Positions 23,678-57,000 are shown, counted from the first letter of the stretch. The stretch is 64,000 nt of DNA from Chitinophagales bacterium (GCA_016787045.1 JAEUVA010000002.1:1-64000); one strand, 5' to 3'. Notes: generated by a model not told the origin, from the sequence alone. Program-made: numbers and translations.

Positions 23678-24415
23678 TTAATACAAATCACTTTTTAGCC
23701 ATCCCCACTTGCATAAGCGGTGCAGTGCTGAAACTTTAAGGCAACCTATACCATAAGTAACACTACGGCTAAAGTTAATGGAGCTAGCTTCGTCAAAATA
23801 TTTGGTGGGGCAGGTTACTTCTGCAATCTGAAAACCGGCATAAAAAATTTGCGAGAGCATTTGGTTGTCAAACACAAAATCGTCAGAGTTATTGGTGTAT
23901 TTGATGCTAGTCAATACCTGTTTATTGAAAGCTCTGTAACCGGTGTGATACTCCGAAAGTTTTTCGCCCAGCAAAATATTTTGCGTGAGCGTGAGCATGC
24001 GGTTAAAAATGTATTTGTAAAGCGGCATACCTCCTTTAAGTGCGCCACCGCCCAATATGCGCGAACCCAGCACCACCGGGTAAACATCATTACCTATTAT
24101 GCTGATCATGGCGGTGAGTAGCTTTGGCGTGTATTGATAATCGGGATGAAGCATGACTACAATATCGGCACCAATTTCCAACGCCTTGTTGTAGCAGGTT
24201 TTTTGATTACCGCCATAGCCCTTGTTTTTTTCGTGCTTTATTACATGGTGTATGCCTAACTGTTTGGCCAGTTCTACGGTATTGTCTTTACTGGCATCAT
24301 CTACCAAAATCACTTCATCCACAATATCCATGGGTATTTCACTATAGGTTACTTCCAGCGTTTGGGCTGCGTTGTATGCAGGAAGAACCACTACTACTTT
24401 CTTGCCGTTGTACAT
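23678..24415 (-). CDS. Glycosyltransferase family 2 (DPM1/polyprenyl-phosphate sugar type)
   Basis: A 245-residue GT-A fold enzyme. It has VVVLPAYNAAQTLE at the N-terminus, VDDASKDNT for nucleotide-sugar binding, and ADIVVMLHPDYQYTP in the DxD position, here with the HPD form. GSRILGGGALKGGMP and LGEKLSEYHTGYRAF match the group of bacterial DPM1-like enzymes that move a sugar to undecaprenyl phosphate or a lipid acceptor. No membrane helices are evident, so it would work at the cytoplasmic face. It is divergent from the two-gene glycosyltransferase operon, with the promoter of the latter overlapping its start. Confidence 0.87.
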   Translation of the reverse strand: MYNGKKVVVVLPAYNAAQTLEVTYSEIPMDIVDEVILVDDASKDNTVELAKQLGIHHVIKHEKNKGYGGNQKTCYNKALEIGADIVVMLHPDYQYTPKLLTAMISIIGNDVYPVVLGSRILGGGALKGGMPLYKYIFNRMLTLTQNILLGEKLSEYHTGYRAFNKQVLTSIKYTNNSDDFVFDNQMLSQIFYAGFQIAEVTCPTKYFDEASSINFSRSVTYGIGCLKVSALHRLCKWGWLKSDLY

Positions 24416-24431
24416 GGGGTTGCTACTTTCG
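24402..24431 (+). promoter_or_regulatory. Probable promoter of the glycosyltransferase pair
   Basis: TTG at 24402-24404, a 19-base spacer, then TACTTTCG at 24424-24431. The same spacing and the same TACTTTCG element occur before sucC. The first half lies inside the 5' end of the divergent GT2 gene. The GTG start at 24453 is ~14 bases after the expected transcription start. Confidence 0.45.
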
Positions 24432-24452
24432 TGCGCTAATCTAAAATAACCT

Positions 24453-25652
24453 GTGAGTGCGTTGCGTATTTTGATGTTGATGAACCGAATCCCTTTTCCG
24501 CTAAACGATGGAGGGGCTATTGGCTCGTATAACTTTATTAAGGGCTATGCCGAGGCAGGAGCAGAAGTTACTGTGTTGGCGATGAACACGGCCAAGCATT
24601 TTGTAGAGCGCGATAAGTTGAAAGGCAGTATTTTGAAATATGCTCAACTCCACGATGTATATGTAGATAACCGCATAAAACCGGTTCCTGCACTGCTGAA
24701 TCTTTTAAAGTCAAAATCATACATCACCGAGCGCTTTGAGTCCGGGAGTTTTGAGCGTAAACTGGTGAGGTTACTTAAGGATAATACTTATGATTGGGTG
24801 CATGTAGATGGACTTCCATCGGCTTTATACATAGATGTTGTTCGCCAACACAGTAATGCCAAGATTTCTATGCGGGCGCACAATGTGGAGTACAACATTT
24901 GGAGGCGAATAGCACAGCAAGAAACAAATTTCTTTAAAAAATGGTATCTGCAACTGCAATCGGAGCGGCTGCAAAATTTTGAGAACGAGGCATGGCGAAA
25001 AGTGGATGTTACCTTAGCCATTAGCCGCGAAGACGAGCAAATGATTTTGGCAGACGTACCCAATGCCAACACTATCATAGTACCTGCCGGGTGGGACATA
25101 CCAGAAGAAAAACCAACAGGAAACAACGAAGTGTTCCCACTATTCTTTATCGGCTCATTTGACTGGATGCCCAATCTGCAAGGAATGAAATGGTTTGTAG
25201 AGGAAGTAATGCCCGCGCTCACAAAACAAATACCGGATTTACGTTTAAACGTTGCGGGAAAAAAGATACCACAAGAAGTTATCAATTATCAATCACCCAA
25301 CATTAATATAGTAGGAGAGGTGCCCGATGCTAAATCATTTATGCTGGCCAATGGTGTGATGATTGTACCTATCATTTCAGGTAGTGGTATACGAATAAAA
25401 ATTTTGGAGGCAATGGCACTGGGCAAATGTGTAATATCCACTACAATTGCAGCCGAGGGTCTTGGACTTACTAATGGAGAAAATGTATTGATAGCCGATG
25501 ATGTGGATGGGTTTGTAAAATGTTTAAACGATTGCATGAGTAGCGAAATTTTGACAAAACAAGTGGGGAAAAAAGCGTATCAGTTTGTTCGTAATAAATA
25601 TAACAATCGCTCGGTAATTGAACAATTACTTCACTACTATTGCTCTCAATGA
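24453..25652 (+). CDS. Glycosyltransferase, GT-B fold, family 4-like
   Basis: A 399-residue protein beginning with GTG (MSALRILMLMNRIPFPL). The N-terminal half has the family pattern GGAIGSYNFIKG for acceptor binding, and MRAHNVEYNIWRR. The C-terminal half carries FIGSFDWMPNLQGMKWF, then PIISGSGIRIKILEAMALGK, the nucleotide-sugar-binding signature with the E-x7-E style Glu residues, and CVISTTIAAEGL. It would transfer a sugar from an NDP-sugar in surface polysaccharide or glycolipid synthesis. An alternative start is the ATG at 24474, which would remove part of the first strand and is less likely. Its stop overlaps the next gene's start as ATGA. Confidence 0.88.
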   Translation: MSALRILMLMNRIPFPLNDGGAIGSYNFIKGYAEAGAEVTVLAMNTAKHFVERDKLKGSILKYAQLHDVYVDNRIKPVPALLNLLKSKSYITERFESGSFERKLVRLLKDNTYDWVHVDGLPSALYIDVVRQHSNAKISMRAHNVEYNIWRRIAQQETNFFKKWYLQLQSERLQNFENEAWRKVDVTLAISREDEQMILADVPNANTIIVPAGWDIPEEKPTGNNEVFPLFFIGSFDWMPNLQGMKWFVEEVMPALTKQIPDLRLNVAGKKIPQEVINYQSPNINIVGEVPDAKSFMLANGVMIVPIISGSGIRIKILEAMALGKCVISTTIAAEGLGLTNGENVLIADDVDGFVKCLNDCMSSEILTKQVGKKAYQFVRNKYNNRSVIEQLLHYYCSQ

Positions 25653-26836
25653 TAGCGTTGTTGATTATCTATTTGATATGCATTGTATTGATTGGCTACT
25701 CTTATGTGGTTTATCCGGCACTGTTGCGTGTTTTATCAGGAGGTAAAAAGTTTTCACACGAACAATTCACTCAGCATGAATCACTACCGGATGTTATCAT
25801 ATTTTTTGCGGTGTACAATGGCGAAAAAGTACTGCGCGAAAAATTGCAGAGCATGCTACAATCCGACTATCCGGCTCAGCAAATCAAAATCTTAGTGGGC
25901 TCCGATGAGTCAACTGATCAAACAGATGCCATAGTGAATGAATTTGCCCAAGTAGATCATCGCGTTGAGCTGCATCGGTTTTCAAGAAGAGGTAAAGCAA
26001 ATGTACTTAACTCATTAAGCGAAATTTTGCAGAAACGTCCACTTAAAAACGATACCATATTTATCTTGACTGATGCTTATGCCATTTTTGAACCCCAAAC
26101 TGTTTTTGAACTTGTTAAACATTTCAAATCTGATGAAATAGGTATTGTAGGCGCAAAGTACATCAATACAAATGTGCAGGAAGGTGGAATATCTATACAA
26201 GAAAAAGCATATATACAAAGAGAGAATTTGATGAAATATCACGAAAGTGTTGTGTTTGGTAGTATGATGGGAGTTTATGGTGCTTGCTATGCTATCAGAG
26301 CAGTTGATTATCCGCAGTTTCCCACCAATATTCTAATGGAAGATTTTTATGTTACAATGTTGACCCTTCTGAATAATAAAAAGAGCATCTTGTCATTAGA
26401 TGCGAAATTTTATGAGAGCATTCCCAACTCAATGGATATTGAATACAACAGAAAACGTAGAATAGCAGCCGGTAATTTTCAGAATTTATTCCATTTTCCA
26501 TCACTACTCAGCCCTTTGCGTTTTAAAGTTGCATTTCCTTATTGGTCGCACAAGGTAATTAGATGGATGGGGCCGTTACTGCTATTTGCAAGCTATGTTT
26601 GTATTTTACTTTTACCATTCTACTCTACCGCCTATTGGGTAATAGGATTATTGGCTATCCACTTGTTTGTGTTGTTTATTCCAATGCTTGATTTTGTATC
26701 TAAAAAAGTAGAATTAGATATTGCCCTTTTGCGTTATGCCAACTATTTTTTGCAAATGAATGTAGCTGTTGCATCCGGCTTCTTATGGTTCGTAAGGGGG
26801 ATTAAAACAAACGTGTGGCAACCCACAGCACGCTAA
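25649..26836 (+). CDS. Membrane glycosyltransferase family 2
   Basis: A 395-residue membrane enzyme. I chose the ATG at 25649 because it overlaps the upstream stop as ATGA, giving translational coupling; a TTG nine bases earlier is the only alternative. One membrane helix lies at residues ~2-22 and two or three more in the last 100 residues. The GT-A domain has IIFFAVYNGEKVLREKLQSML, VGSDESTDQT, then LTDAYAIFEP at the DxD position and MEDFYVTMLTL with the catalytic ED. RKRRIAAGNFQNL resembles the QxxRW region of processive synthases, though it is not identical. It probably makes or extends an envelope polysaccharide with its partner gene. Its stop overlaps the stop of the convergent gene by four bases. 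Confidence 0.88.
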   Translation: MIALLIIYLICIVLIGYSYVVYPALLRVLSGGKKFSHEQFTQHESLPDVIIFFAVYNGEKVLREKLQSMLQSDYPAQQIKILVGSDESTDQTDAIVNEFAQVDHRVELHRFSRRGKANVLNSLSEILQKRPLKNDTIFILTDAYAIFEPQTVFELVKHFKSDEIGIVGAKYINTNVQEGGISIQEKAYIQRENLMKYHESVVFGSMMGVYGACYAIRAVDYPQFPTNILMEDFYVTMLTLLNNKKSILSLDAKFYESIPNSMDIEYNRKRRIAAGNFQNLFHFPSLLSPLRFKVAFPYWSHKVIRWMGPLLLFASYVCILLLPFYSTAYWVIGLLAIHLFVLFIPMLDFVSKKVELDIALLRYANYFLQMNVAVASGFLWFVRGIKTNVWQPTAR

Positions 26837-29097
26837 TATGTCCTCTCCAACACAAACCAACTAAACGCTCTCAGGTTCAGCTTCACCATGCTATCGCGTA
26901 GCAGTGGATCCATTTTGCGCCAGGCGTTTTCTAAAATGGTTTTGGCCTCGTGTTCGCAGGTTTCAATTACGCGGTGTTTATCCAGCATGGCTATGGCCTC
27001 GCCAATCAGTTTCATATCGCTGGTTTTGGCGCTAACAATTTGCCACAAGCGTTTACGCTCTGCTTTATTCATTACTGCCATGGCCTTGGCTATGGGGTAA
27101 GTTATCTTACCTGCAGTAATGTCCTCTGCCTTGGTTTTCAGGTTGTCTTTAAAACCTTTTAGGTTGAGGGTGTCATCAATAATCTGAAACGAAATTCCCA
27201 GCGCTTCAAAATAGTTGCCCATGGCCTCTACTTGCTCTTGGCTGCCTTGCCCGAGGAGTACGCCTATGCGAGCCAAATATGCAGCCGGTGCTGCTGATTT
27301 GAGGCGATGTGTAGCAATTACTCGTTGCTGCAAGAGTTTTGCAGTTTTATCTTCTTTCAATGCAGCAGGCATCATATAATCTAAACCATATATGTCCATG
27401 GCCTGACCGCTGTGTGAGGCGCGCATGGCTTCAAAATACCAGTTGTAAATCTGTACTTTTTCTTCAAACGATTTATCTACATGATAAATACAGTACTGCC
27501 CCAAAAAGTAAGCCGCTGTACCGCTGTTAATGGCTGTGGCCTCGCCATGCACCACGTGTGCCGCTGGGCCGCCTCTGCGCACCAGTGATTTATCTTGTAC
27601 ATCATCTACCATGAGCGAGCCCACATGCATCATTTCCGGTAATGCCAACCAATCAATAGCTACTTGCGAATTACCACCCACAGCATCGCAGCAGGCAATA
27701 GTGGCATAGCTGCGCCAACTCTTGCCACTGCGGTCGGTAATTTCGCGTATAGGTTTAATGAATTTTTCAATATATGCCTGTTTATCCAATCCTCTGGTGA
27801 GGTGGGTATTTCCTTTTTTAGAAACCAGTTCTTCAAATTTTTCTTGACCAAATGCCAGCGGAATAATTTGTTGTACGGAGTTGAGCGTAGCTTTAGAAAC
27901 CGCTTTCAAAAACTCTTTCATATTGCTACTGTTTACAAACCCGTGGCGCTCTATGTACCCGGGTCCGCTTACTTTTTTGCCTTTGAGAGTACCGGTAATA
28001 TTCATACGGCCTTCCCAAAATGCGGGCTTAGAAATAACAGTGGCAAATTCTTGGTTGGGGAAGGCCGCTTCGGCTTTTACTTTTAGCCCTAACTCAGGGG
28101 CTTCCAGAGTCCAATGGGTAGGGTATTCATTAAAGGTTCGTGTGCTGGTCCATAACTCACCGTGTTGTTTCAATTTAAACTTATTGGAGTGATGGCGCTT
28201 TCCTTTTTCATCAATCAATATCACAAAAGAGCCACAATCTTCACCGGTTTTTAAATCTATCAAATCATAAGCCGTTAGTTCGCAGCCATTATCTAACTGC
28301 ATGGCAATCCAGTTCCAGCTCACATCTTTTTTTGCTTCATCTTTTCCGGCATCTTCTTTTTTAGCATGGCAGCCAAACTCATGGTCGTACCAGCCGGTGG
28401 CCGATGTGATTTCTAACTTCTCTTTTTTGAGTTTAACACTGCCGGTTACCTTACATTTTGGTATAAAGTAATAAAACATGTCCTCGGCACTTACACCACG
28501 CACCACGCCATTATCTCCATGCCGTGTAGGTGGTTTTTGCGGCTTAAAGTTGATGTCAACACCAAGTTGTAACTCTTTGTGCAATAAGTGTAGTTGATAT
28601 GTACCATCATCTAACTTTTTAAACGTATTGCCATCGTAGTTCAGGTGCAATTCTTTTTGTGATATGGTGGGGTCTTTCACCAGCAATTCATCTGGATAGG
28701 GCATTACGCCTTTGCTCAGCATTTCTATAGCTGCTCTGCGGATAAATGGGTCTTTCACCAGTTCCCCCTTCTTTAACCTCTCCAGACCAAGTTTTGGAGC
28801 ACGTTTATCTACTAAAGAAACGGTGTGATACTTCTTATTATCTATATCAGAAATTCCCCATATTACCGAGTGGGCATAATTGGGGGCCTTGGTCTTTTTA
28901 TCAAAACTAATGGCGTGGCGAAAGAAGGAGGCAAACAAAGAAAGGTTCCTACCACCTTTTGCTCTGATGTGGCTATGCATGTACCACCATTCGGTAGTAG
29001 ATGATGCATGCGGTAAGTCATGAATGTTTAAATCAATGGGGCCATCTTTAGGCCAATCGGCAGCAAAAAATTTTTCAGCAGCGGGTTTCTTTTTCAT
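26833..29097 (-). CDS. Fusion of CrtC/AttH lipocalin-like domain with polyprenyl synthase domain
   Basis: A 754-residue protein with two clear halves. Residues ~15-395 match the CrtC/AttH lipocalin-like fold: TEWWYMHSH near 35, WYDHEFG at 236-242, WNWIAMQLDNG at 271 and GPGYIERHGF at ~388. CrtC-type enzymes add water to carotenoid double bonds. Residues ~415-750 are an all-alpha isoprenyl diphosphate synthase: GKSWRS at 458, the first Asp-rich motif DDVQD at 498-502 with RRGGPAAH after it, and the second motif as DDTLN at 641-645. The last position of the second motif is Asn instead of Asp. No signal peptide is seen. The fusion suggests one polypeptide making and modifying an isoprenoid, which is inference. 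Confidence 0.82.
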   Translation of the reverse strand: MKKKPAAEKFFAADWPKDGPIDLNIHDLPHASSTTEWWYMHSHIRAKGGRNLSLFASFFRHAISFDKKTKAPNYAHSVIWGISDIDNKKYHTVSLVDKRAPKLGLERLKKGELVKDPFIRRAAIEMLSKGVMPYPDELLVKDPTISQKELHLNYDGNTFKKLDDGTYQLHLLHKELQLGVDINFKPQKPPTRHGDNGVVRGVSAEDMFYYFIPKCKVTGSVKLKKEKLEITSATGWYDHEFGCHAKKEDAGKDEAKKDVSWNWIAMQLDNGCELTAYDLIDLKTGEDCGSFVILIDEKGKRHHSNKFKLKQHGELWTSTRTFNEYPTHWTLEAPELGLKVKAEAAFPNQEFATVISKPAFWEGRMNITGTLKGKKVSGPGYIERHGFVNSSNMKEFLKAVSKATLNSVQQIIPLAFGQEKFEELVSKKGNTHLTRGLDKQAYIEKFIKPIREITDRSGKSWRSYATIACCDAVGGNSQVAIDWLALPEMMHVGSLMVDDVQDKSLVRRGGPAAHVVHGEATAINSGTAAYFLGQYCIYHVDKSFEEKVQIYNWYFEAMRASHSGQAMDIYGLDYMMPAALKEDKTAKLLQQRVIATHRLKSAAPAAYLARIGVLLGQGSQEQVEAMGNYFEALGISFQIIDDTLNLKGFKDNLKTKAEDITAGKITYPIAKAMAVMNKAERKRLWQIVSAKTSDMKLIGEAIAMLDKHRVIETCEHEAKTILENAWRKMDPLLRDSMVKLNLRAFSWFVLERTY

Positions 29098-29631
29098 TAG
29101 TAAATGAGAATTTTTAAAAACAGCGCAAGAAAAGTTTTTTATTTAAAGCGGTGTAAACAAGTATCTTATCTGTACTCAAAATACTTAAAAAAATTTCTGT
29201 GCTATGTAGCACATGTAACACAAACATGCCTATCATTATTATGCAATAATGAGTTTTTGCTATTTATTTGAAGTGTTACTCATGCATTGCTCACCAAGCA
29301 GTTCAATTGGTTTCAACATTCCTTCACATCTTATGCAGTGTAGATAAACACTTCAAATGTAGTTAACCGCAAGTTTTGTTGTTTAAAACTCTTCATAGCT
29401 CATTTGGTGCTTACCTTACCTCCGTTCATCAAGCCATTCTATATTGTAATATCTATATTTATTAGCCCCTTGCTCATTTCAAACCCTCTGTTATCTTTGC
29501 GCGCTCTAAAAAAGGAATGTTGAGGCAAAACTTCAGGTTGGGTAGTATGCAAGCCGGCAGGCGCGAAACCCACCAAACCGCCAAAGACAGCCCGGTTTTT
29601 CGCTATACGTATCTCTTAAAACAACCATTTT
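29098..29631. other. 534-base intergenic region with an AT-rich hairpin and the rpoC promoter and leader
   Basis: No gene is supported here. It separates two divergent genes. A perfect 8-bp stem (29233-29240 with 29245-29252, loop ATGC) is followed on the plus strand by GTTTTTG, so it looks like a small terminator although no plus-strand gene precedes it. The rpoC promoter lies at 29470-29499. The leader of ~125 bases holds a weaker hairpin (AAACCG at 29575-29580 with CGGTTT at 29593-29598, followed by TT). Confidence 0.5.
29470..29499 (+). promoter_or_regulatory. Bacteroidota-type promoter of rpoC
   Basis: TTG at 29470-29472, a 19-base spacer, then TATCTTTG at 29492-29499, an exact match to TAnnTTTG. 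The leader to the ATG at 29632 would be ~125 bases, much longer than for the other promoters found here. Confidence 0.6.
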
Positions 29632-32600
29632 ATGGCATTTAAAAAAGACCAGAAAAGTAAAGCCGATTTTTCAAAAATCACCATCATGTTGGCATCGCCC
29701 GATGTGATTCTCAGCCGCTCAAACGGTGAGATTAAGAAGCCAGAAACCATTAACTACCGTACCTACAAACCCGAAATGGAGGGCTTGTTTTGCGAGCGCG
29801 TTTTCGGTCCAACTAAAGATTATGAGTGCTACTGCGGTAAGTACAAGCGCATTCGCTATAAAGGTATAGTGTGCGACCGCTGCGGTGTAGAAGTGACCGA
29901 AAAGAAAGTACGCAGAGACCGCATGGGGCACATTAAACTAACAGTGCCGGTGGTGCATATCTGGTATTTCAAATCATTGCCCAATAAAATCGGTTACCTG
30001 TTGGGTATTTCATCTAAAAAGATGGAAAGCATTATCTACTACGAAAAATACGTAGTAGTACAGCCCGGCAATGCAGGCAAAGAGATAAACGTACTTACAG
30101 AGAAAGGAGAGGAGCGCAAAGCCATTCAGTACTTAGATTTACTTTCAGAAGAAGAATACCAGAGTGTATTGGAAAACGAAGAGTTGAAAAACAACTATGC
30201 GTTAGACGATACTGATCCTAATAAATTTATTGCCAAAATGGGTGCCGAGGCCATCAAAGAATTGTTGGCTCGCCTCAATTTAGATGAACTCTCTTACCAA
30301 CTTCGCCACTCTGCGGCTAACGAAACTTCTCGCCAGCGCAAGAGCGAAGCCCTTAAGCGCTTAAGTGTAGTAGAGCTTTTCCGCTCTGCCAACGAGCACG
30401 TAGAAAACCGCCCCGAGTGGATGGTTATTCAGTACTTACCGGTAATACCACCTGAACTTCGTCCGTTAGTTCCGTTGGATGGTGGCCGTTTTGCATCATC
30501 CGACTTGAACGATTTATACCGCAGAGTAATTATCCGCAACAACCGTTTAAAGCGATTGGTGGAAATTAAAGCGCCAGAGGTGATTTTGCGTAACGAAAAG
30601 CGCATGTTGCAAGAAGCAGTGGACTCTTTGTTTGATAATAGCCGTAAGTCTAATGCAGTAAAAGCAGAAGGCGGGCGCCAGTTAAAATCTTTATCAGATG
30701 TACTCAAAGGCAAGCAAGGTCGTTTCCGCCAAAACTTATTAGGTAAGCGTGTAGATTACTCCGGTCGTTCAGTTATTGTGGTTGGCCCTGAGTTAAAACT
30801 GCATGAGTGCGGTTTGCCAAAAGACATGGCGGCTGAGTTATTTAAGCCGTTTATCATCCGCAAGTTGATTGAAAGAGGCGTTGTAAAAACAGTGAAAAGT
30901 GCCAAGAAACTGGTAGATAAAAAAGAACCCATCATTTGGGATATTTTAGAGAACGTGTTGAAAGGCCATCCGGTACTTTTGAACCGTGCCCCTACACTTC
31001 ACCGTTTATCTATTCAGGCGTTCCTTCCCAAACTTATTGAAGGCAAAGCCATTCAGCTTCACCCGTTGGTATGTACCGCCTTTAACGCTGACTTTGACGG
31101 TGACCAAATGGCAGTGCACGTGCCGCTAAGCAATGCTTCAATTCTTGAGGCGCAGTTGCTCATGCTTTCGTCACACAACATTTTGAACCCGCAAAACGGT
31201 ACACCTATCACCCTTCCTTCGCAGGATATGGTTTTGGGTCTGTACTACATGAGTAAAGAGCGCAAAAGCACCAAAGACGTAAAAGTAATTGGCGAGGGCC
31301 TTACCTTCTACGGTGCAGAAGAAGCCATTATCGCCTTTAACGAAGGCCGTGCAGAACTGCACGCTCCGGTAAAGTGCCGTGTGAGTGTGAAAAACGAGAA
31401 AGGTAAACTGGTACAAAAAGTAGTAGAAACCTCTTTGGGTAAAATACTTTTCAATCAGGTAGTACCAACAAGCGTTGGTTATGTGAACAAAGTATTGACC
31501 AAAAAGCAACTTAAAGACGTAATCGGTCAGATATTGGCCGAAACGGATATTCCCACCACTGCCAAGTTTTTGGATGATATCAAGAAGCTCGGATTCTTCT
31601 ACTCCTTTAGAGGTGGTTTGAGCTTTAACTTGAGCGATGTGGTAGTGCCTACCAACAAAGAAAAGTTAGTAGCCGAAGCACAGCAACGTGTGGATGAGGT
31701 GTTTGATAGCTACCAAAACGGTTTCATTACCGATAAAGAGCGTTTTAACCAGGTTGTAGATATTTGGTCTAGCACCGATAACCGCCTTACTTCTCAGCTT
31801 ATGAAACAGATTGCTGAAGATCGTCAGGGCTTCAACTCTATTTACATGATGTTGGATTCTGGTGCTCGTGGTTCCAAGCAGCAGATTAAGCAGCTTTCGG
31901 GTATGCGGGGTATTATGGCTAAACCACGTAAGAGTGGCAGCACCGGACAGGAGGTAATTGAAAACCCGGTATTGGCAAACTTTAAAGAAGGTCTGTCGGT
32001 ATTAGAGTACTTTATCTCTACTCACGGTGCGCGTAAAGGTCTGTCCGATACGGCTCTTAAAACGGCAGATGCCGGTTACCTGACCCGTAGGTTGGTAGAT
32101 GTGGCGCAAGACGTGGTTATTTCTGAAGAAGATTGCGGAACACTACGTGGTATTGCTGTATCACCTCTCAAAGACAACGAGGAGATTCTTGAACCGCTAT
32201 ACGATCGTATTTTGGGTCGTACATCGCTCAACGATGTTTATCACCCCGAAAACGATGAGTTGCTGGCAGAAGCCGGACAACACATTGATGAAAATACTGC
32301 TCGCAAGATTGAGGCATCGGGTGTAGATCAAATAGAAATCCGTTCGGTACTTACCTGCGAAGCCAAAACCGGCTGCTGCGTAAAATGCTACGGACGCAAT
32401 TTGGCCACTAACCGTATAGCCGAAACCGGTGATGCTGTAGGTATCATAGCCGCACAAAGTATTGGTGAGCCGGGTACTCAGCTTACACTTCGTACCTTCC
32501 ACGTGGGTGGTATTGCCAGCTTGGGTCAAAGCGAATCGCAGATTGCTGCCCGATTTGATGGTTTGGTACAGTTTGATGGTATTCGTACAACTACCGGTAT

Positions 32601-45063: not shown

Positions 45064-48000
45064 ATGAAGAAGATTCTTTTCTTTTTCCTCTCGGCTTTTG
45101 CCGTCTTCACTTCATTTGCGCAATCGGTAACCGTTACTCAACCCAATGGCGGAGAAACACTCTATGGCTGCCAAACCTACCAGATTCGCTGGACAGCCAC
45201 CGGTGTTTCAAACTTTTGGAACATTGAGTACTCGCTCAACAACGGCAGTACATGGACTACCGATGCTACCAATCTTTCTGTAACTCCAAGCGGTGGTTTT
45301 TATACCTACAATTGGACAGTACCGGCTATTACCTCGGCACAATGCTTAGTGCGTGTAACCGATTTCAGCGATAACCTAAAAACTGACCAAAGCAATGCTG
45401 TTTTTACTGTGGCACAAGCAATAGTAGTTACAGCACCAAATGGTGGAGAAACTTGGCAAGGGCTTACTAACCAAAGCATAACTTGGAATAGCCCAGGTAC
45501 TTCCGGCCCATTCAATATTGCGTATAGCACTAATAATGGTACTTCATGGACAAACATACAAACCAGCTACAGTGGTAACTCACTTACCTGGACGGTGCCT
45601 AACATTCCTTCCACACAAGCATTGATACGTGTTCAAAACACTTCTAACACTTGCCAAACAGACAATAGCAACGCTAATTTTACAATTTCGGCTGCCACAC
45701 CTGTAGTAACTGCTCCAAATGGCGGACAGGTTTGGACAATTGGCACTCTTCAAAACATTACATGGACTCCTTCTACCTACTACTCTAATGTAGATATAGA
45801 ATACAGTACCAACAACGGCAGTACCTGGACTACCATAGTAACCAACGATGCGAATGACGGCACCTATTCTTGGACTATTCCTAATGCGCCCACCTCGCAG
45901 GCATTGGTACGCGTGAGCAACAATGCGAACCCGGCAATTAACGATGTTAGCAACGCGGTCTTTAGCATAGTGCCCGGCTCTGTTACTATAACACAGCCCA
46001 ATGGCGGAGAAACTTTATATGGTTGCCAGAGTTACCAAATCCGTTGGACGGCTTCAGGTACTTCTAATTTTTGGAATATTGAATATTCGCTCAATAACGG
46101 TGCTACATGGACATCTGAAGCCACTAACTTATCTATAGCCCCAAGTGGCGGTATTTACATTTATGGTTGGACGGTGCCTACCGTTACCTCTAACCAAGTG
46201 TTAGTGCGCGTAACCGATTTTAATGATAATGCAAAAACGGATGTTAGTAATGCAGTATTTACCATAGCTGCTGCTATTACAGTTACTTTCCCTAATGGTG
46301 GTGAAAGTTTGCAGGGTCTTACTTCACAAACCATCACATGGAATAGCCCTGGTACTGTAGGGCCATTTCCAATTCAATACTCCGTAAACAATGGCACTAA
46401 CTGGACTACCATAGCCAGTAGCGTTAGTGGCAATACATATGTATGGACAGTGCCTAACAACCCAAGTGCCTTGGCACTGGTGCGTGTGTTAAATCAAAAT
46501 AATACGTGTCAGCAAGATCAGAGCAATGCTAATTTTACCATTACTCCAGCCACACCTATTATGACTTTACCAAATGGTGGAGAAAGTTTGGTAGTAGGCA
46601 CCAGCTACAATATTACTTGGAACTCTTCAACGTATTACTCTACTGTTAATATTGAATACAGCACTAATAACGGATCTACGTGGACACCAATTGCCACTGC
46701 TGACCCTAACGATGGCACTTACACATGGACTGTACCCAACACGCCTACCTCGCAAGCTATAGTGCGGGTGAGTAATAACGCCAACCCATCAGTAAATGAT
46801 GTGAGCAATGCAGTTTTCTCTATTGTGCCCGGCTCTGTAACCGTAACTGCACCTAATGGTGGAGAGTTGTATTACAGTTGCCGCACATATAGTATTACTT
46901 GGACAGCCGTAGGTACTTCAAATTTTTGGAATTTGGATTACTCGCTCAACAACGGTGCAACATGGATTTCTATTGCCACTAACCTTTCTGTATCACCAAG
47001 CGGTGGCACTTACACCTACAACTGGGTAGTGCCGTTTGTAGCTTCAACTCAAGCATTAGTTCGTGTTCGCGATTTTAACGACTTAGCCAAAACAGATGTG
47101 AGCAATGCTAATTTCACCATTCAATACCCTATAACTGTATTGACCAATAACGGTGGAAGTACATGGCAGGGCAATACCGTACAAAATATTACCTGGACCG
47201 CAGCCGGTTTAATTTCAGGTACACTTACGCTGGAATACTCTATCAACAACGGTACTACATGGACTACTATTTCTAGTGGAGAAACCAATGATGGCACCTA
47301 CAACTGGACAGTACCAAATACTCCAAGTACTCAGGCACTTATCCGTGTAAGAGATAATACAAATACCTGTCAAAACGATATTAGCGATGCGGTGTTTACT
47401 ATTTCTGAACCAACACCCATACTAACAGCCCCTAACGGTGGAGAAACATGGACAGTAAACAGCAGCCGCTCTATTACATGGAACAGTAATTCATTCTACT
47501 CTACCGTTAATTTAGACTACTCTATTAATAACGGCAGCACTTGGACAAACATTGCCACCGGAGTAAGCAACACCGGCAGCTATAGCTGGTTAATTCCATA
47601 TACTCCGTCTGCTCAGGCGTTGGTACGCGCCAGCAACAGTGCAAATACAGCCATCAACGATGTAAGCAATGCAGTGTTTACCATCTTAATGCCTACACCT
47701 GTATTAATTGCACCAAACGGTGGTGAAACTTGGAATGTAGCCACCACTCAAAACATTACTTGGAACTCTACCACATTTGTATCTAATGTGCGCATTGAGT
47801 ATAGCATAGATAATGGTGTAACTTACAACCTAATAACCAGCAGCACCCCTAACACTGGTTCTTATGCGTGGACCATTCCGGCCACACCTTCAACACAAGC
47901 ATTAGTACGAATCTTTAATACTTTAAGTGGCGCTACAACTGTTGGCGATACCAGCAATGGTGTATTTACAATAGCCAACCCGGCTATTGCTGTAACAAAT

Positions 48001-51000
48001 CCTACAGCCGCCACTCAATGGCAGGTTGGCCAGTCGGTTACTTTGCAGTGGACCAACGGTGCGGGTATTTCTAGCGTGCGCTTAGAGTATTCTACCAATG
48101 GTGGCACTACCTGGACATTGATTACAAGTTCTACGAGCACTACCAGTACTGGCGGCAGCTATGCTTGGACAGTACCAAACATACCCGGCACACAGAATGT
48201 GATAAAAGTAAGCAATACAGCAAACCTAAGTGTAAATGGCAGCAGTCCGTTCTTTACTGTATTGCCTCCAATGACAGTTACACTGCCAAATGGCGGAGAA
48301 GTACTCAACGGTTGCCAGACTTATGCTATACAACTTACCAAAACTCCGTTTTTAACCACGGGTTGGATACAAGTAGAATATACATTGGATGGTGGCGCTA
48401 ACTGGATTAATTTTTCTAACCCAAGCAATAACGGATTAACTACACAAACCGTAAACTGGAGTGTACCAAATTTACCAACTAACATTGCTTCTATACGCGC
48501 ATTTTTTAGCAATACACCTGCTGCGCGCGATAGCAGCGATGGGTATTTCACGATTAACCTCTCTAACGATATAACGGTGCTTACACCTGCTGCTCCGGTT
48601 AATTACACTCCGGGGCAAACGGTTACCATTTCTTGGAGCAACACGGCCAATGTAAGTGGTTTGTTTACGCTGGCTTGGAGAGATAGTTTGGGGAATTTTT
48701 CTACCATAGCCAGTAGTGTATCGGGTAATAATTATATATGGACTGTACCCAATACTCCGGGCAATGCAAACCGTTTCCGTGTGCGTGATAGTGGCAATAG
48801 TTGCCGCGAAGATTTGAGTGATACTACGTTCAGAATTTTGCCTAATTCTCCATTACTCACATATCCAAATGGGGGAGAAGTATTTGATGTAAACGATGCA
48901 GTAACCATTACATGGAACACAGCTACCTACTATACTCCACTGCGTTTGGAATATTCTACCAACAACGGATTTACCTGGAATTTGATTGTGAGCAGTACCT
49001 CAAACTCTGGTAGTTACTCGTGGACAGTTCCCAACGCTATTTCTACCCAATGTTTAGTTCGTGCACAAAGCACTACCAATTTATTTTTGGGAGATACGAG
49101 CAATGCGTTCTTCACCATTCGCAGGCCTGTACAACTTTTAACCCCACTGGCTACAGATACTTTTATAGCATGTAATAGTATACCATACAGCTTCCGGAAA
49201 GGGGCTAACGTTGGTACCTTGTATAGCGTTTTTGCTTCTACTGACAATGGTGCAAACTGGACGCAGGTAATTACTAATGCAGCTTTGGCTAATGGCGCTT
49301 ACACAGAAAGTAATTCGTTCACTGTACCGGTAGCTAATTATGTAGGGCCAATGAAAATTCGTGTGGTAACCAGTTTTGGAAGTGTGTATGCCGATACATT
49401 GGCGTATAACTTTTACATTAAACCATTTACCGGAATTAATGTGGTAACCCCTAATGGTGGGCAAACTTTTAATGCCGGTACACAGCAGTTAATTGGGTGG
49501 AATAACACACTAGGCCTTACTTCCTTTAACTTGCAGTACTCGCAAGATGGCGGTACCAACTGGAGCAATATTGCCAGCAGCGTGGGCTGTTGCAGCTACA
49601 CTTGGACAGTGCCAAACGTAAACAGTAACCAGGTATTGGTTCGTGTGCGCGATCAAAGCAATACTTGCCGAGCAGATAGTAGCAATGCGTTTTTCACTAT
49701 CATTCCTACGGCACCTATACTTATTTCACCTAACGGGGGAGAAGTGTTGAGTGTAGGTACTACTCCAAACATTACATGGAACAGTGCCACATTCTTTTCT
49801 GCTGTTCGTTTAGCATATTCAATTGATAACGGAGTGAACTGGATTTTGATAACCAGTTCTACACCAAATACCGGCAGCTATTCATGGACGGTGCCTAACG
49901 GAGTATCTACTCAATGTTTAGTACGCGCCAGCAATGTTAGTGATACTACTTGGTTTGATGTAAGCAATGCGGTGTTTACTATCAATCAACCTAAACCTGT
50001 GTTGATTTCTCCAAATGGTGGTGAGGTGTATGATATCAACACAGCATACAGCATCAACTGGAACTCATCTACTGTAAATAGTACAACTGTTCGCTTAGAG
50101 TACTCTATAAATTCCGGATTAACATGGGCAACGATAGTTTCGTCTACCACAAATAATGGCAGTTACTCATGGACTGCACCTGCCGTTCCTTCTAACCAGT
50201 GTTTGGTGCGTATTGTCAATCTGTCCTTCCCGGCACAGATGGATACCAGTGATAATGTGTTTACCATACTAACTCCGGTACAGGTATTATATCCTAACTT
50301 AACTTCAGATAGTTTAAAATCTTGTCAAACAGTATCGGTTACCTTCCGCAAAAACTTTAACAACAGTGGTACTTATTATTTCTACTATACTTTAGATAAT
50401 GGCGCTGTATGGAATTTTGTTAATTCTAACACATTTGCATCTACTACCTCCGGTAGTTTTAGCTGGACAGTACCACAAGTTGCCGGCTCTAACAATGCCC
50501 GTGTAAAAATTTCGCAGAGTAGCGACCCATACAATACATCTACTATATATCAGGATAGTAGCGATCAGGTATTTAGTATAAAAATGCCGGTAGCTGATAT
50601 TACGGTTACTGCACCCAACGGTGGGCAAGTGATTAACGCATTAACTAACTATACGATTACATGGACCAATGGTGCTACCGCCTCTGGCTTGTACCGCATA
50701 CGCTACCGCAACTCTGCCGGCAGCAATACTACCATTGCATCAAACATTACAGGAAATGCCTATATATGGTCTGTGCCAAACCTTGTAGGCGATTACAAGA
50801 TTTGGGTAGAAGACCAAAACAACACTTGTAAGTTTGATACCAGTGATGCTTTCTTTACTATCAACCCTGCTACACCGGTACTTACCGCACCAAATGGTGG
50901 AGAGTTTTGGGGTGCAGGTACATCCCAAAACATCACATGGACTACCAATACCATTTATAGCGGTGCTACCGTTCGCTTGGACTACTCATTGGATAGTGGC

Positions 51001-54000
51001 TTGACATGGAACTTGATTCAAACCGGCCTGAGCAATACCGGTAGCTACAACTGGACAGTGCCAAACGTGCAATCTAATTTAGCTTTAGTACGCATTAGCA
51101 CAGTAGGTACGGTTAACTTAACAGATGTAAGCAATGCTATATTTACTATTGGCTACCCTACACCGGTGCTCACCACTCCTAACAGTGGTACATTTGAGTA
51201 TGGCGAACCTATTTCTATTGGTTGGACTCCTTCATCGTTTAACTCAACAACGGTACGCTTAGAGTATTCGGTAGATAGCGGCACCACTTGGACATTAATT
51301 ACTACACAAACCACTTCAGCGGGATCATATGCGTGGAACGCTCCATACATCACCAGTACAGCTAAGTTTTTTATCCGGGTAATGAACACACTGAACCTGA
51401 GTGTTTGGGATGCCAATAACAACCCACTAAGCATTAACCGTCCGGTGCGCTTGAATGTAATGAATACTCCTACCACATTGACTGGATGCCAGACCTATAC
51501 ATTTAACGTAAGTCGCACACCGTACTATAGTAGCACACTTTATATTCAGTACTCTACAAATGGCGGTGCTACATGGACTACAGCTACAACCATTAGTAGT
51601 GGTGGAGCAGTAACCCAAAATGCCACATGGACGGTTCCGAACATTAGTTCTCCCAATACGATTTTTAATGCCTACTTCATAAATAATCCGAGTTACAACG
51701 ATACAGCAGATGCCAATGTGGTGATAAATCCGGATTATCCGATTGCGGTTACTGCTCCTAACTCTAATGTGCAGTTGATACCCGGCCAGTTGTTTACCAT
51801 TAGTTGGAGCAACACCGCCAACGTGAGTGGCTTGTATAGAATTCAATTATGGAATGGTGGCTCGCTTACCTCTACGCTCGCCACTAACATTACCGGCAAC
51901 AACTGGGTATGGACTGTGCCCAACTCTCCGGGTACTAACTGGAAGATAAGAGTATTGGATGATCAAGCTACTTGTAAGTTTGATAGCAGTGATGTTTCAT
52001 TTACCATAGTGCCAAAAACACCTTTGCTTACGGCACCAAACGGAGGGCAAACTTGGTGGGCCGGCCAAACGCAAGCCATTACTTGGGATAACACTACTTT
52101 CTACGATAACGTGCGCTTAGATTACTCTTTGGATAATGGCTTTACTTGGATAAACATCACAACAGCTACTGCAAACGATGGTTCTGAGTCATGGACACTA
52201 CCTTGGACAATTACACGATCCACACAAGCGTTGGTTCGTGTTAGCAATGCAGTTAATTTGAGCTTAAATGATGTGAGTGATGCAGTATTTACTATCAACC
52301 CGGCCATACGCATACTTACACCAAACGGTGGTTTGCAATTGGGGGCTTGTACCAATAGTTCTATTTCGTTTGAGCACTCACCGCAAATACAAACCAACGG
52401 TTGGACATTCCGTATTGAGTACTCGCTCAATAACGGTGTAAACTGGACAACGCTCATTACCAACCAATCGCCACAAACCAGTTCGCTCACCACATACAAT
52501 TACAGTATTCCTAACTCTTCATCAACACAATACGTGGCCAGAGTTTCGGTTACTTCTGTTTCGTCATATAATGACGTAAGTGATTCGCTCAATACCATCA
52601 AGCCGGCTGTAACTATTATTCAACCAAACTTTGGTGGTGTGTTGCAGGTGGGTAGCACTTACCAAATAAAGTGGAGCAGTGATGGTATATCTAACTTGTA
52701 CAATCTGTATTATTCCACCACAGGTTATGCCGGGCCGTACTCTACTATTCAATTGAACTACAACACTGCCACCAACCAGTATAACTGGACGGTGCCAAAC
52801 ACACCATCTAATAACTGCTACTTGGTGATACAAGATGCTACAGCCGCTTGTAAGTCAGATACCAGCAACCTTGCCTTTATTATTTCATCTACTTCATCGC
52901 AAATTACGGTAACAGCACCAAACGGTGGCGATTCGCTTAGCGGATGCCAGAGCTACAACATTACCTGGACAGATGCCGGTGCTAACGGGCCATATAATGT
53001 GGCTTATACCACAGATGGTGCGGCCTCTTACAATACTATTGCTACTAATGTGAGCGGTACCAGCTACAATTGGGTTGTGCCTAACAACATCAACAGCAGT
53101 AATGTGCTGGTGCGTGTACAAAGTGCAGGTACACCTACCGTGTTTGACTTGAGCAATGCATTGTTTACTATTCAGAATGGTAAAGTAATCGCATCGCCAG
53201 ATACTACCATTTGTCAAGGCCAAAGTGCACAATTGATGGCAACCGGTGGAAACGGAATTTACAGCTGGACTCCATCTGCCACACTCAGCAACCCTAACAT
53301 TCCGAACCCCGTAGCTACGCCAAGTGTTACTACTACATATACCGCTACTTCTAACAACAGCGGATGTATATTGAGCGATACTGCTCGTGTAACTGTGATA
53401 CCCGGTGGGGTAGTAGCTCCTACGGTAAGTATTGCGGTTTCGCCATCTACGGGTATTTGCAGCGGTACATCAGTTACGTTTAGCGCTACTGCTACCAATG
53501 GTGGCGGCTCACCAATCTACCAATGGAAAAAGAATGGTACTAACGTAGGTACAAACAGTTCTACTTACACCACCAATACCATTGCCAACAACGACCAGAT
53601 TACCTGTGTGATGACCAGCAGTGCGGCTTGTGTTAGCCCGCTTTCAGCTACTTCTAACGCCATTACCATGACTGTGTTCCCAACAGTAGCGCCTTCTGTT
53701 TCTATTTCAGCTTCTTCTACAAACGTTTGTACAGGAGCAAACATCACCTTTACGGCTACGGCTACGAATGGTGGCGGCTCACCTGTTTATCAATGGAAGT
53801 TGAATGGAAATAACGTAGGTACAAACAGTGCCACATACAGTAACAACGCGCTTGCTAACAACGATATAGTGGTTTGCCAGTTAACCAGCAGCGCTAACTG
53901 TGCCACACCGGTTACTGTTACTTCTAACTCTTTAGTAATAACGGTAAATAGTTTTGTAACTCCTTCAATTACTATTAGCGTGCCAAGTACAACAGTATGC

Positions 54001-57000
54001 TCAGGTCAAAGTGTAGTGTTTAGTTCATCTATCACCAACGGTGGTGCCGCTCCGGTTTATCAGTGGAAGAAAAACGGTAGCAATGTGGGTACAGGTTTAA
54101 GCACTTATACCACCAGCACATTGGCTAATAACGATGTGATAACTTGTGAACTTACTTCAAATGCAGCTTGCCCAAGTCCGGCAACTGTTACCAGCAATTC
54201 ACTGACCATGAGTGTAGTGAGCAGCGCAGTGCCATCGGTAAGTGTAAGTGCTAGTGCAACCAATGTTTGTGCGGGAACTACAGTGTTATTTACAGCCACT
54301 CCAACCAATGGCGGCTCTACCCCAAGCTACCAATGGAAAGTAAACGGCAACAACACCGGCACCAACTCCGCTACATATTCTACCAATGCGTTAGCGAATA
54401 ATGACGTGGTAACTGTAGTGATGACTTCAAACTTTGCTTGTGTATCGCCTACTTCGGCTACTTCAACAGGTATTACCATGACGGTGAACCCAACCAGTGC
54501 TCCAACTGTATCTATTGCTGCATTACCAAGTGGTGCGGTTTGTACCGGTACTTCGGTTACGTTTACGGCTACGGCCTCTAACGCAGGAGGCACCCCAAGC
54601 TACCAATGGAAAGTGAATGGTAGTAACGTAGGCGGTAATTCATCTACGTACAACTCTTCATCTCTGGTAAGTAGCGATGTGGTAACCTGTGTGGTAACCA
54701 GCAGTAGCACTTGTGCTTCGCCAAACACTGCTACCTCTAATGCTGTTACCATGACGGTGAATAGTAATGTTGTACCAACTATCAGCATTAACACAAGCAA
54801 TACCAACGTTTGTGCTGGAGCTAACGTGGTGTTTACATCTACCATTACCAATGGTGGTACCACACCTGTTTACCAGTGGAGAAGAAACGGTACTGTAGTG
54901 GGCACCAACTCTGCATCGTACAGTTCAACTACTTTGTCTAACAATGATGTGATTACTTGCCGCTTGACATCTAATGCAGCATGTGTCACACCGGATAGCG
55001 CTATCTCAAACGCTGTTACAATGACTATTAATCCTGTAGTGGCTCCTTCAGTAACCATTGCTACTACAACTACCACAGTTTGTGCAGGCACCTTAGTCAA
55101 CTTTACGGCAACCCCCACTAATGGCGGCAGCAACCCTGCCTATCAGTGGAAAGTGAATGGCAGCAACGTGGGGACTAACAGTAACACCTTTAGCTCATCT
55201 ACATTAGCCAATAACGATGCAGTGAGTGTAGTGCTTACCAGTAATGCTACCTGCGCTTCGCCTGTTTCGGCTACCTCTAACACGCTGAACATGACGGTGA
55301 ACCCGAATGTAACACCTACCGTAAGCATCAACGCATCGGCTACGAGCATTTGTACCGGAGGTAGTGTTACTTTCACTGCATCTGCTACCAATGGTGGCGC
55401 ATCGCCAGTTTACCAATGGAGAGTTAACGGCTCACCTAGCGGAACCAACAGCAATACATTCACTACTACTACCTTAGCCAATAGCGATGTGGTAACTTGT
55501 GTGTTGACAAGCAATGCAACTTGTGCCACTACCACTACTGCTAATTCTAACGCCATTACTATTACCGTAAATTCGGCAGTTACTCCTTCGGTTACTATTG
55601 CCACAGGTAGCAGCACTATCTGCTCGGGTACATCAGTTACGTTTACCGCCACACCAACCAATGGTGGCGGAACTCCTGCTTACCAATGGAGAGTGAATGG
55701 CAATAACGTAGGTACAAACTCTGCCTCTTACACTACCAATACATTAACCAATAGCGATGTGGTAAGTGCAGTGCTTACCAGCAATGCCAACTGTGCCTCA
55801 CCGGCATCGGTTACATCTAACAGTATAACCATGACAGTAACGCCTAGTGTTACCCCAAGTGTGAGCATTAGCGCATCATCTACTAATATTTGCGCAGGTA
55901 CATCGGTTACCTTTACAGCTACACCTACTAATGGCGGCACTACACCAAGCTACCAATGGAAAGTAAACGGTAGCAATGCAGGTACTAACTCTGCTACGTT
56001 CTCTTCTTCTACACTAAATAACAATGATTTGATAAGTGTAGTGATGACCAGCAACGCCTCCTGTGCCTCACCTGTTTCTGTAACCTCTAATGCCATCGCT
56101 ATTACCGTGAACTCTCTAAGTGCACCTACCATCAGCATTAGCACAGGTGCTAATACAGTATGTGCCGGAGCAAACGTTACGTTTAATGCCACGGTTACTA
56201 ATGCAGGTTCATCACCGGTTTACCAATGGAAAGTGAACGGCAACAACGCAGGCACTAATGCGGCATCTTTCTCTACTACTGCTTTAGTGAGTGGAGATGT
56301 GGTAAGTTGCCAGTTTACATCAACCAGCCCATGTGCGGGTACTACTACTGTAAGTTCAAATAACGTTACCATGACGGTGAACCCAAGTGTGGCTCCGGCA
56401 GTTAGCATCAGCGCATCGGCAACTAACATTTGTGCCGGTGCATCAGTTACGTTTACTGCCACGCCTACTAATGGTGGTAGCACTCCGGCTTATCAATGGA
56501 AAGTGAACGGAAACAATGCGGGCACTAATAGCGCTACGTTTACCACTTCTACACTAGTAAATAATGATGTTGTAACTGTAGTGTTGACCTCAAACGCTAC
56601 TTGTGCAGTACCTGCTACTGCCACTTCAAACAGTGTAACTATTACAGTGGGTTCTAATGCCACACCTACCATTAATATCAGTACCGCTTCAACAAGTATT
56701 TGTGCAGGAGCAAACGTTACGTTCAATGCAACTATTACCAACGGTGGAAGCAACCCTGCATATCAGTGGAAAGTGAATGGCAATAATGCCGGCACTAATG
56801 CTCCATCATTCACCTCAAATACGTTACCGAATGGTGCGGTGGTAAGTTGTGTGCTAACCTCTAACGCAAGTTGCGTAACACAAAGTACAGCCAACTCTAA
56901 CAACATTACCCTTACGGTATCTCCGGTAGTAACTCCTGCTGTAAGTATCAGCGCCAGCAGCAGCACAATTTGTGCAGGTGTTAGCGTAACGTTTACGGCC

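Follow-up and report, generated by a model that had tools for sequence, protein, structure and literature searches.

A CrtC/AttH-type lipocalin domain fused to an isoprenyl diphosphate synthase in bacteria: a candidate bifunctional isoprenoid enzyme

Introduction

CrtC from Rubrivivax gelatinosus is a free-standing enzyme that acts on carotenoids through a PF07143 domain. Its mutagenesis identified four essential residues, His239, Trp241, Tyr266, and Asp268, the last of which is conserved and has been proposed to be the proton donor to the terminal isoprenoid double bond (PMC4717167). Short terpenes are hydrated by CrtC at their tail, and geranylgeraniol weakly (PMC12402844). The same two-lobed CrtC fold with a WYD motif is present in kievitone hydratase from Nectria haematococca (7A0Q), a secreted fungal single-domain enzyme that hydrates the prenyl group of a prenylated isoflavonoid (PMC5805349). 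AttH NE1406 (2ICH), equally a single-domain protein, brings together an EWWY and a W-x-D motif.

A different type of relative is represented by the fungal bifunctional terpene synthases PvCPS and PaFS, in which a prenyltransferase is joined to a domain acting on its product, in this case an alpha-helical class I/II cyclase. To our knowledge, wherever a prenyl-chain synthase is combined with a product-acting domain in one enzyme, this second role falls to a helical cyclase domain. Contrary to them, the protein described here is bacterial, and its second domain is a beta-barrel lipocalin of the CrtC/AttH type. This fusion was not described in the CC-licensed PMC papers searched and, as far as found in that literature, a CrtC-type second domain has not previously been paired with a prenyl synthase. 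Its plasmid copies in RefSeq are labelled only as "polyprenyl synthetase family protein", a name under which the second domain can readily be missed. If the lipocalin in this conserved fusion of several phyla does act as an acid catalyst, terpene enzymology would extend to another fold.

Architecture of the fusion protein

The window, that is, the whole stretch of 64,000 nucleotides from a Chitinophagales bacterium (JAEUVA010000002.1:1-64000), holds on its minus strand an ORF of 754 amino acids (26833-29097) with an ATG start and zero internal stops. Three Pfam matches, all exceeding their cut-offs, account for most of it: the CrtC N-terminal lipocalin lobe PF07143 at residues 35-242 (28372-28995, E 7e-21), the second lobe Lipocalin_9, PF17186, at residues 256-385 (27943-28332, E 1e-21), and the isoprenyl diphosphate synthase (IDS) core PF00348 (polyprenyl_synt) at residues 446-703 (26989-27762, E 5e-45, 154 bits against a cut-off of 27). 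Residues 386-445 (27763-27942) form an inter-domain region that is mostly helical and partly conserved, according to the alignment and the AF2 model. The fusion of a CrtC/AttH lipocalin domain with a prenyl synthase, which the initial annotation had proposed, is therefore confirmed, with both domains complete in one ORF and the stretch that it assigned to the CrtC/AttH half, residues 15-395, matched by the profiles of the two lipocalin lobes. The motifs that it had read, EWWY, WYDHEFG, DDVQD, and DDTLN, lie at residues 36-39, 236-242, 498-502, and 641-645, respectively. The overlap with the stop of a convergent glycosyltransferase gene, also reported there, amounts to 4 bases (26833-26836) and is trivial and ordinary.

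The AF2 model of the whole fusion reaches a mean pLDDT of 89 and a pTM of 0.87, a value that, for two domains of similar size, suggests a defined domain arrangement. No alpha-helical terpene cyclase domain was matched by Pfam in the fusion, and its N-terminal half is an all-beta lipocalin by both AF2 and Foldseek. The PF07143 match is the only CrtC match in the window's genome, and an Rfam scan of positions 24000-31000 gave no matches.

Distribution and joint evolution of the two halves

A genome scan detected 67 loci in other genomes, most of them complete fusion ORFs of about 730-880 amino acids, the shorter copies being mostly cut by contig ends. The carriers belong to Bacteroidota (Chitinophagales, Saprospiraceae, Flavobacterium, Telluribacter), Myxococcota (myxobacterial MAGs), Verrucomicrobiota (a Verrucomicrobia MAG), Cyanobacteria (Iningainema), and one Thermoplasmata MAG, the last to be taken with caution because it is a single bin. 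Plasmid searches add copies from Tolypothrix PCC 7601/7712 and Streptomyces canus. The fusion is present in only 6 of 396 Bacteroidota genomes at E < 1e-60, as opposed to 16 of the 18 genomes of the window's genus (fragments counted), so that, with its several phyla, the distribution is patchy but broad. Some carriers are in culture (Flavobacterium hydatis DSM 2063, Telluribacter, Iningainema, and Tolypothrix PCC 7601), which opens a direct way to look for the product. Of the six carriers in the scan of the phylum, four (G035, G119, G327, and G337; loci L077-L080 and L086-L089) constitute a divergent second Bacteroidota subfamily, whose loci L077-L079 encode the same three Pfam domains with WxDHQWG, DDIxD, and DDIxN/DDVHN motifs (a DDIHN-type second motif).

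This distribution also decides on whether two separate genes might have been joined here by a lost stop codon, an accidental read-through, or an assembly error. Nothing was found in favour of such a joining, and assemblies made independently of each other, some of them from isolates, show the full-length architecture in different phyla, which rules it out for practical purposes. In one locus, that of Flavobacterium sp. Root935 (L064:7947-10216), the fusion is found as two ORFs in different frames, probably through a frameshift or a sequencing error.

The two halves have evolved together. Distances from their separate maximum-likelihood trees (46 rows) correlate with r 0.976, the largest value of 1000 permutations being 0.52, and still with 0.867 once the five most divergent rows are removed; 25 of 43 splits are common to both trees. 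The join is old and has been inherited as a unit. Of the two halves, the N-terminal one evolves at a slightly higher rate (distance ratio 1.27).

Two further observations come from plasmids. A Nitrosomonas stercoris plasmid (L074:11449-14951) encodes an IDS protein in whose N-terminal half Pfam finds no CrtC domain and the WYD motif is apparently missing; the next two genes encode, in this order, a flavin monooxygenase and an LCM-type methyltransferase. Besides, of the plasmid genes annotated as "carotenoid 1,2-hydratase", at least one is AttH-like and belongs to an ABC-permease operon.

The lipocalin half

The closest fold to the lipocalin half alone in the PDB is AttH 2ICH (Foldseek E 2e-24, TM 0.84 to target), which is also its best profile match. 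It is followed by kievitone hydratase (7A0Q/7A0T, E 2e-17 to 2e-18, TM 0.77 to target for 7A0Q, with 14% identity), the 25-phosphosteroid lyase (9FZN/9G4C, E about 1e-11 to 2e-12), and the Diels-Alderases Fsa2 and Phm7 (E 1e-7 to 4e-9, TM about 0.5). Even though the fold is common to Fsa2 and Phm7, a Diels-Alderase reading was rejected, since AttH and kievitone hydratase are the nearer relatives by both sequence and structure. What the relatives of this half have in common is a tertiary cation at the tail of the isoprenoid; the name and ligand of the 25-phosphosteroid lyase suggest that its chemistry would take place at the same tail carbon.

Residue counts given here out of 46 refer to the aligned fusions of both subfamilies, whereas the main alignment, A1, has 41 members. 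The stretch EDMFYYFIP (residues 205-213, 28459-28485, minus strand) is invariant in A1. In the WYDHEFG motif (28372-28392, minus strand), W236 is found in 46/46 fusions and D238, the putative acid matching Asp268 of CrtC, in 45/46, with Glu in Streptomyces. By spacing, an indirect mapping, His239, Trp241, Tyr266, and Asp268 of CrtC correspond to Y209, F211, W236, and D238, so that only the Asp, one of the four essential residues, is kept, the others being Tyr, Phe, and Trp. The equivalence of D238 and Asp268 was assigned by this spacing plus alignment to 2ICH and 7A0Q, rather than to the CrtC sequence itself; in the profile alignment, the matching Asp is present in both AttH (WLD) and kievitone hydratase (WYD). 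Kievitone hydratase aligns Trp, Phe, and Trp at the Y209, F211, and W236 positions, which places the window's protein nearer to it than to CrtC at Y209 and F211.

The synthase half

The C-terminal half, which matches GGPP and polyprenyl synthases in structure, would be an active trans-isoprenyl diphosphate synthase, judging from its residues. Its first Asp-rich motif, DDVQD (27592-27606, minus strand), has D498, D499, and D502 in 46/46 fusions, and the second, DDTLN (27163-27177, minus strand), has D641 and D642 in 46/46. R462, H491, R507, R508, K600, and Q638 are likewise invariant (46/46), and K459 is found in 45/46; R462, H491, and K459 are the residues that we take to bind IPP.

The initial annotation had called DDTLN a variant second motif whose Asn could shift chain length or activity. 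N645 is a family trait, kept in 45/46 fusions (only Streptomyces has DDxxD), which speaks against a degenerate IDS on account of this motif. Eukaryotic GGPP synthases also have a second motif with Asn replacing the third Asp, so this residue by itself signals no loss of activity. These type III enzymes are further characterized by a first DDxxD motif without insertion and by small residues preceding it, features that the fused IDS shares, even though they are single-domain enzymes of primary metabolism with about 22% identity to it in the structural alignment. Ahead of the first motif, positions -5 and -4 are occupied by the small residues G493 and S494, invariant in the 41 members of A1. As a rule, the absence of a bulky residue before the first motif leads to a longer product, of C20 or more, which suggests, at the level of sequence, a product of C20 or longer for the fusion. 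The window's genome has two ordinary IDS genes besides the fusion, as do most of the relatives tested, which makes the fused IDS an extra, dedicated enzyme.

Gene neighbours and the carotenoid question

The window's own neighbours, glycosyltransferase genes (23678-26836) and rpoC, are not conserved beside the fusion in relatives, and a function read from them was therefore dropped. No biosynthetic cluster was seen beside the fusion in the window, in Flavobacterium, or in most myxobacterial loci. Other lineages are more informative. Genes for HMG-CoA reductase, a GHMP kinase, and mevalonate diphosphate decarboxylase adjoin the fusion in three relatives of the window (L006, L007, and L028), and an HMG-CoA synthase gene follows it in Verrucomicrobia (L052). 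At five divergent loci (L035, L038, L052, L053, and L062), the fusion adjoins a glycosyltransferase gene of the GT28 type, different from that of the window, and three of these loci (L035, L053, and L062) have an LMF-like gene and two P450 genes downstream. The weak NCBIfam matches of these P450s include pentalenene oxygenase and albaflavenone monooxygenase, with a RiPP P450 scoring higher. On a plasmid of Tolypothrix sp. PCC 7601 (L072:9646-14172), the fusion is part of a 1509-amino acid sulfotransferase-glycosyltransferase-CrtC-IDS protein, encoded between the gene for an ABC-exporter membrane fusion protein and the devC/ATPase genes. Taken together, the mevalonate, GT28, P450, and Tolypothrix contexts point to a hydroxylated, glycosylated isoprenoid. 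With these mevalonate genes beside several relatives, plus the conserved fusion and the congruent trees, the earlier suggestion that the product is handed over to the fused domain is a reasonable one. In the myxobacterial and deltaproteobacterial loci L032 (10281-10886), L033, L040, L042, and L059, an unannotated protein of about 205 amino acids is encoded directly downstream of the fusion; the copies tested have no Pfam or NCBIfam match.

The similarity to CrtC would also be consistent with a role in carotenoid synthesis, in which GGPP from the IDS would end up in a carotenoid that is then hydrated by the CrtC domain. The window's genome does have carotenoid genes elsewhere: contig C20, at about 92124-98323, encodes two CrtI-family desaturases, a CruF-type match, and a CrtB-like synthase. 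However, this cluster, which lies far from the fusion gene, includes its own CruF (one internal stop is reported in the CruF-type frame), and within the window no other carotenoid or terpene gene accompanies the fusion, as had been noted before. Furthermore, among 26 genomes tested, four carriers of the same genus (G404, G410, G411, and G412, 93-99% complete) have no SQS_PSY match, and four others (G407, G413, G414, and G419) have SQS_PSY and no fusion. Among the matches listed, none is a CrtI-family match above cut-off in those four carriers. Contrary to CrtC, the fusion thus occurs without carotenoid genes, and a carotenoid hydratase is largely ruled out for the window's subfamily by these SQS_PSY-free carriers and by the CruF of the window's genome. 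A CrtI/CrtD-family desaturase is encoded two genes from the fusion in the divergent-subfamily loci of G119 and G337, and a carotenoid link may therefore hold in that subfamily. Overall, we consider the carotenoid role very improbable, and the product is probably not a carotenoid. Of the "carotenoid-hydratase-like" description in the initial annotation, the fold and the catalytic Asp stand, while the substrate does not, given the four carriers devoid of phytoene/squalene synthase and the separate CruF cluster.

Proposed function and alternatives

The reading that we favour, with a probability of roughly 45%, is that of a bifunctional isoprenoid enzyme whose IDS builds the chain and whose lipocalin half hydrates it through D238 to an omega-hydroxy isoprenoid. 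We infer both activities, the chain length, the order of the steps, and the hydration outcome as follows. The C-terminal IDS would build a prenyl diphosphate of C20 or longer, which, as such or in its dephosphorylated form, would be taken up by the N-terminal double lipocalin. There, D238 would protonate the terminal trisubstituted double bond and the tertiary cation would be captured, at best guess by water, to give the omega-hydroxy isoprenoid, an internal alkene being the alternative nucleophile. In several lineages, the hydroxyl may later be glycosylated, P450-oxidised, or sulfated. In favour of this reading count the Pfam domains with their motifs, the acidic, K/R, and H residues of the IDS, invariant or nearly so, as are W236 and D238, the congruent trees of the halves, the nearest folds (AttH, kievitone hydratase, and the 25-phosphosteroid lyase), the essential Asp268 of CrtC and the tail hydration of short terpenes by that enzyme, and the mevalonate, GT28, P450, and Tolypothrix contexts. 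Against it count the absence of the other three essential CrtC residues, the fact that AttH, the closest solved relative, has no known reaction, the many lineages without biosynthetic neighbours, and the Nitrosomonas plasmid copy without a CrtC match.

The same acid chemistry could serve a different outcome if internal double bonds, rather than water, captured the cation that D238 generates, the lipocalin half being then, like class II cyclases, a protonation-initiated terpene cyclase yielding a cyclic prenyl diphosphate or alcohol. The CrtC authors liken their enzyme to squalene-hopene cyclase (PMC4717167). The aromatic side chains that replace catalytic residues of CrtC and the weak terpene-oxygenase matches of the adjoining P450s are in agreement with a cyclase, as is a structure match to the fungal copalyl diphosphate synthase PvCPS (8V0F), which we take to be a precedent for an IDS joined to a cyclase of this kind. 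However, the CC-licensed PMC literature searched yielded no CrtC-fold enzyme that cyclises an isoprenoid chain, and kievitone hydratase, the nearest characterised relative, hydrates its prenyl group, which leaves cyclisation a rather unlikely outcome. A little less likely still is that the lipocalin half has no catalytic role and binds or carries the hydrophobic product, delivering it to the membrane or the enzyme that acts next. Hydrophobic ligands are common among lipocalin folds, and both AttH, for which no reaction is known, and the somewhat faster evolution of the N-terminal half would suit such a role, but D238 and W236 are near-invariant across two subfamilies, at a position essential in CrtC. 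Leaving hydration and cyclisation side by side, we propose, somewhat more tentatively than the hydration reading, a class of bacterial terpene synthases in which one polypeptide would both make a prenyl diphosphate and protonate it, the second step falling to a beta-barrel CrtC-type lipocalin, instead of a helical domain, as cyclase or hydratase. Its products would be an undescribed family of glycosylated isoprenoids which, in Tolypothrix, may be sulfated and exported.

Other features of the window

Two further ORFs of the window have a marked repeat structure. Positions 45064-59559 encode a secreted-looking protein of 4831 amino acids with long runs of similar repeat modules, and positions 254-2623 hold an ORF of 789 amino acids whose N-terminal part consists of collagen-like Gly-X-Y repeats of the GATGPQGP type.
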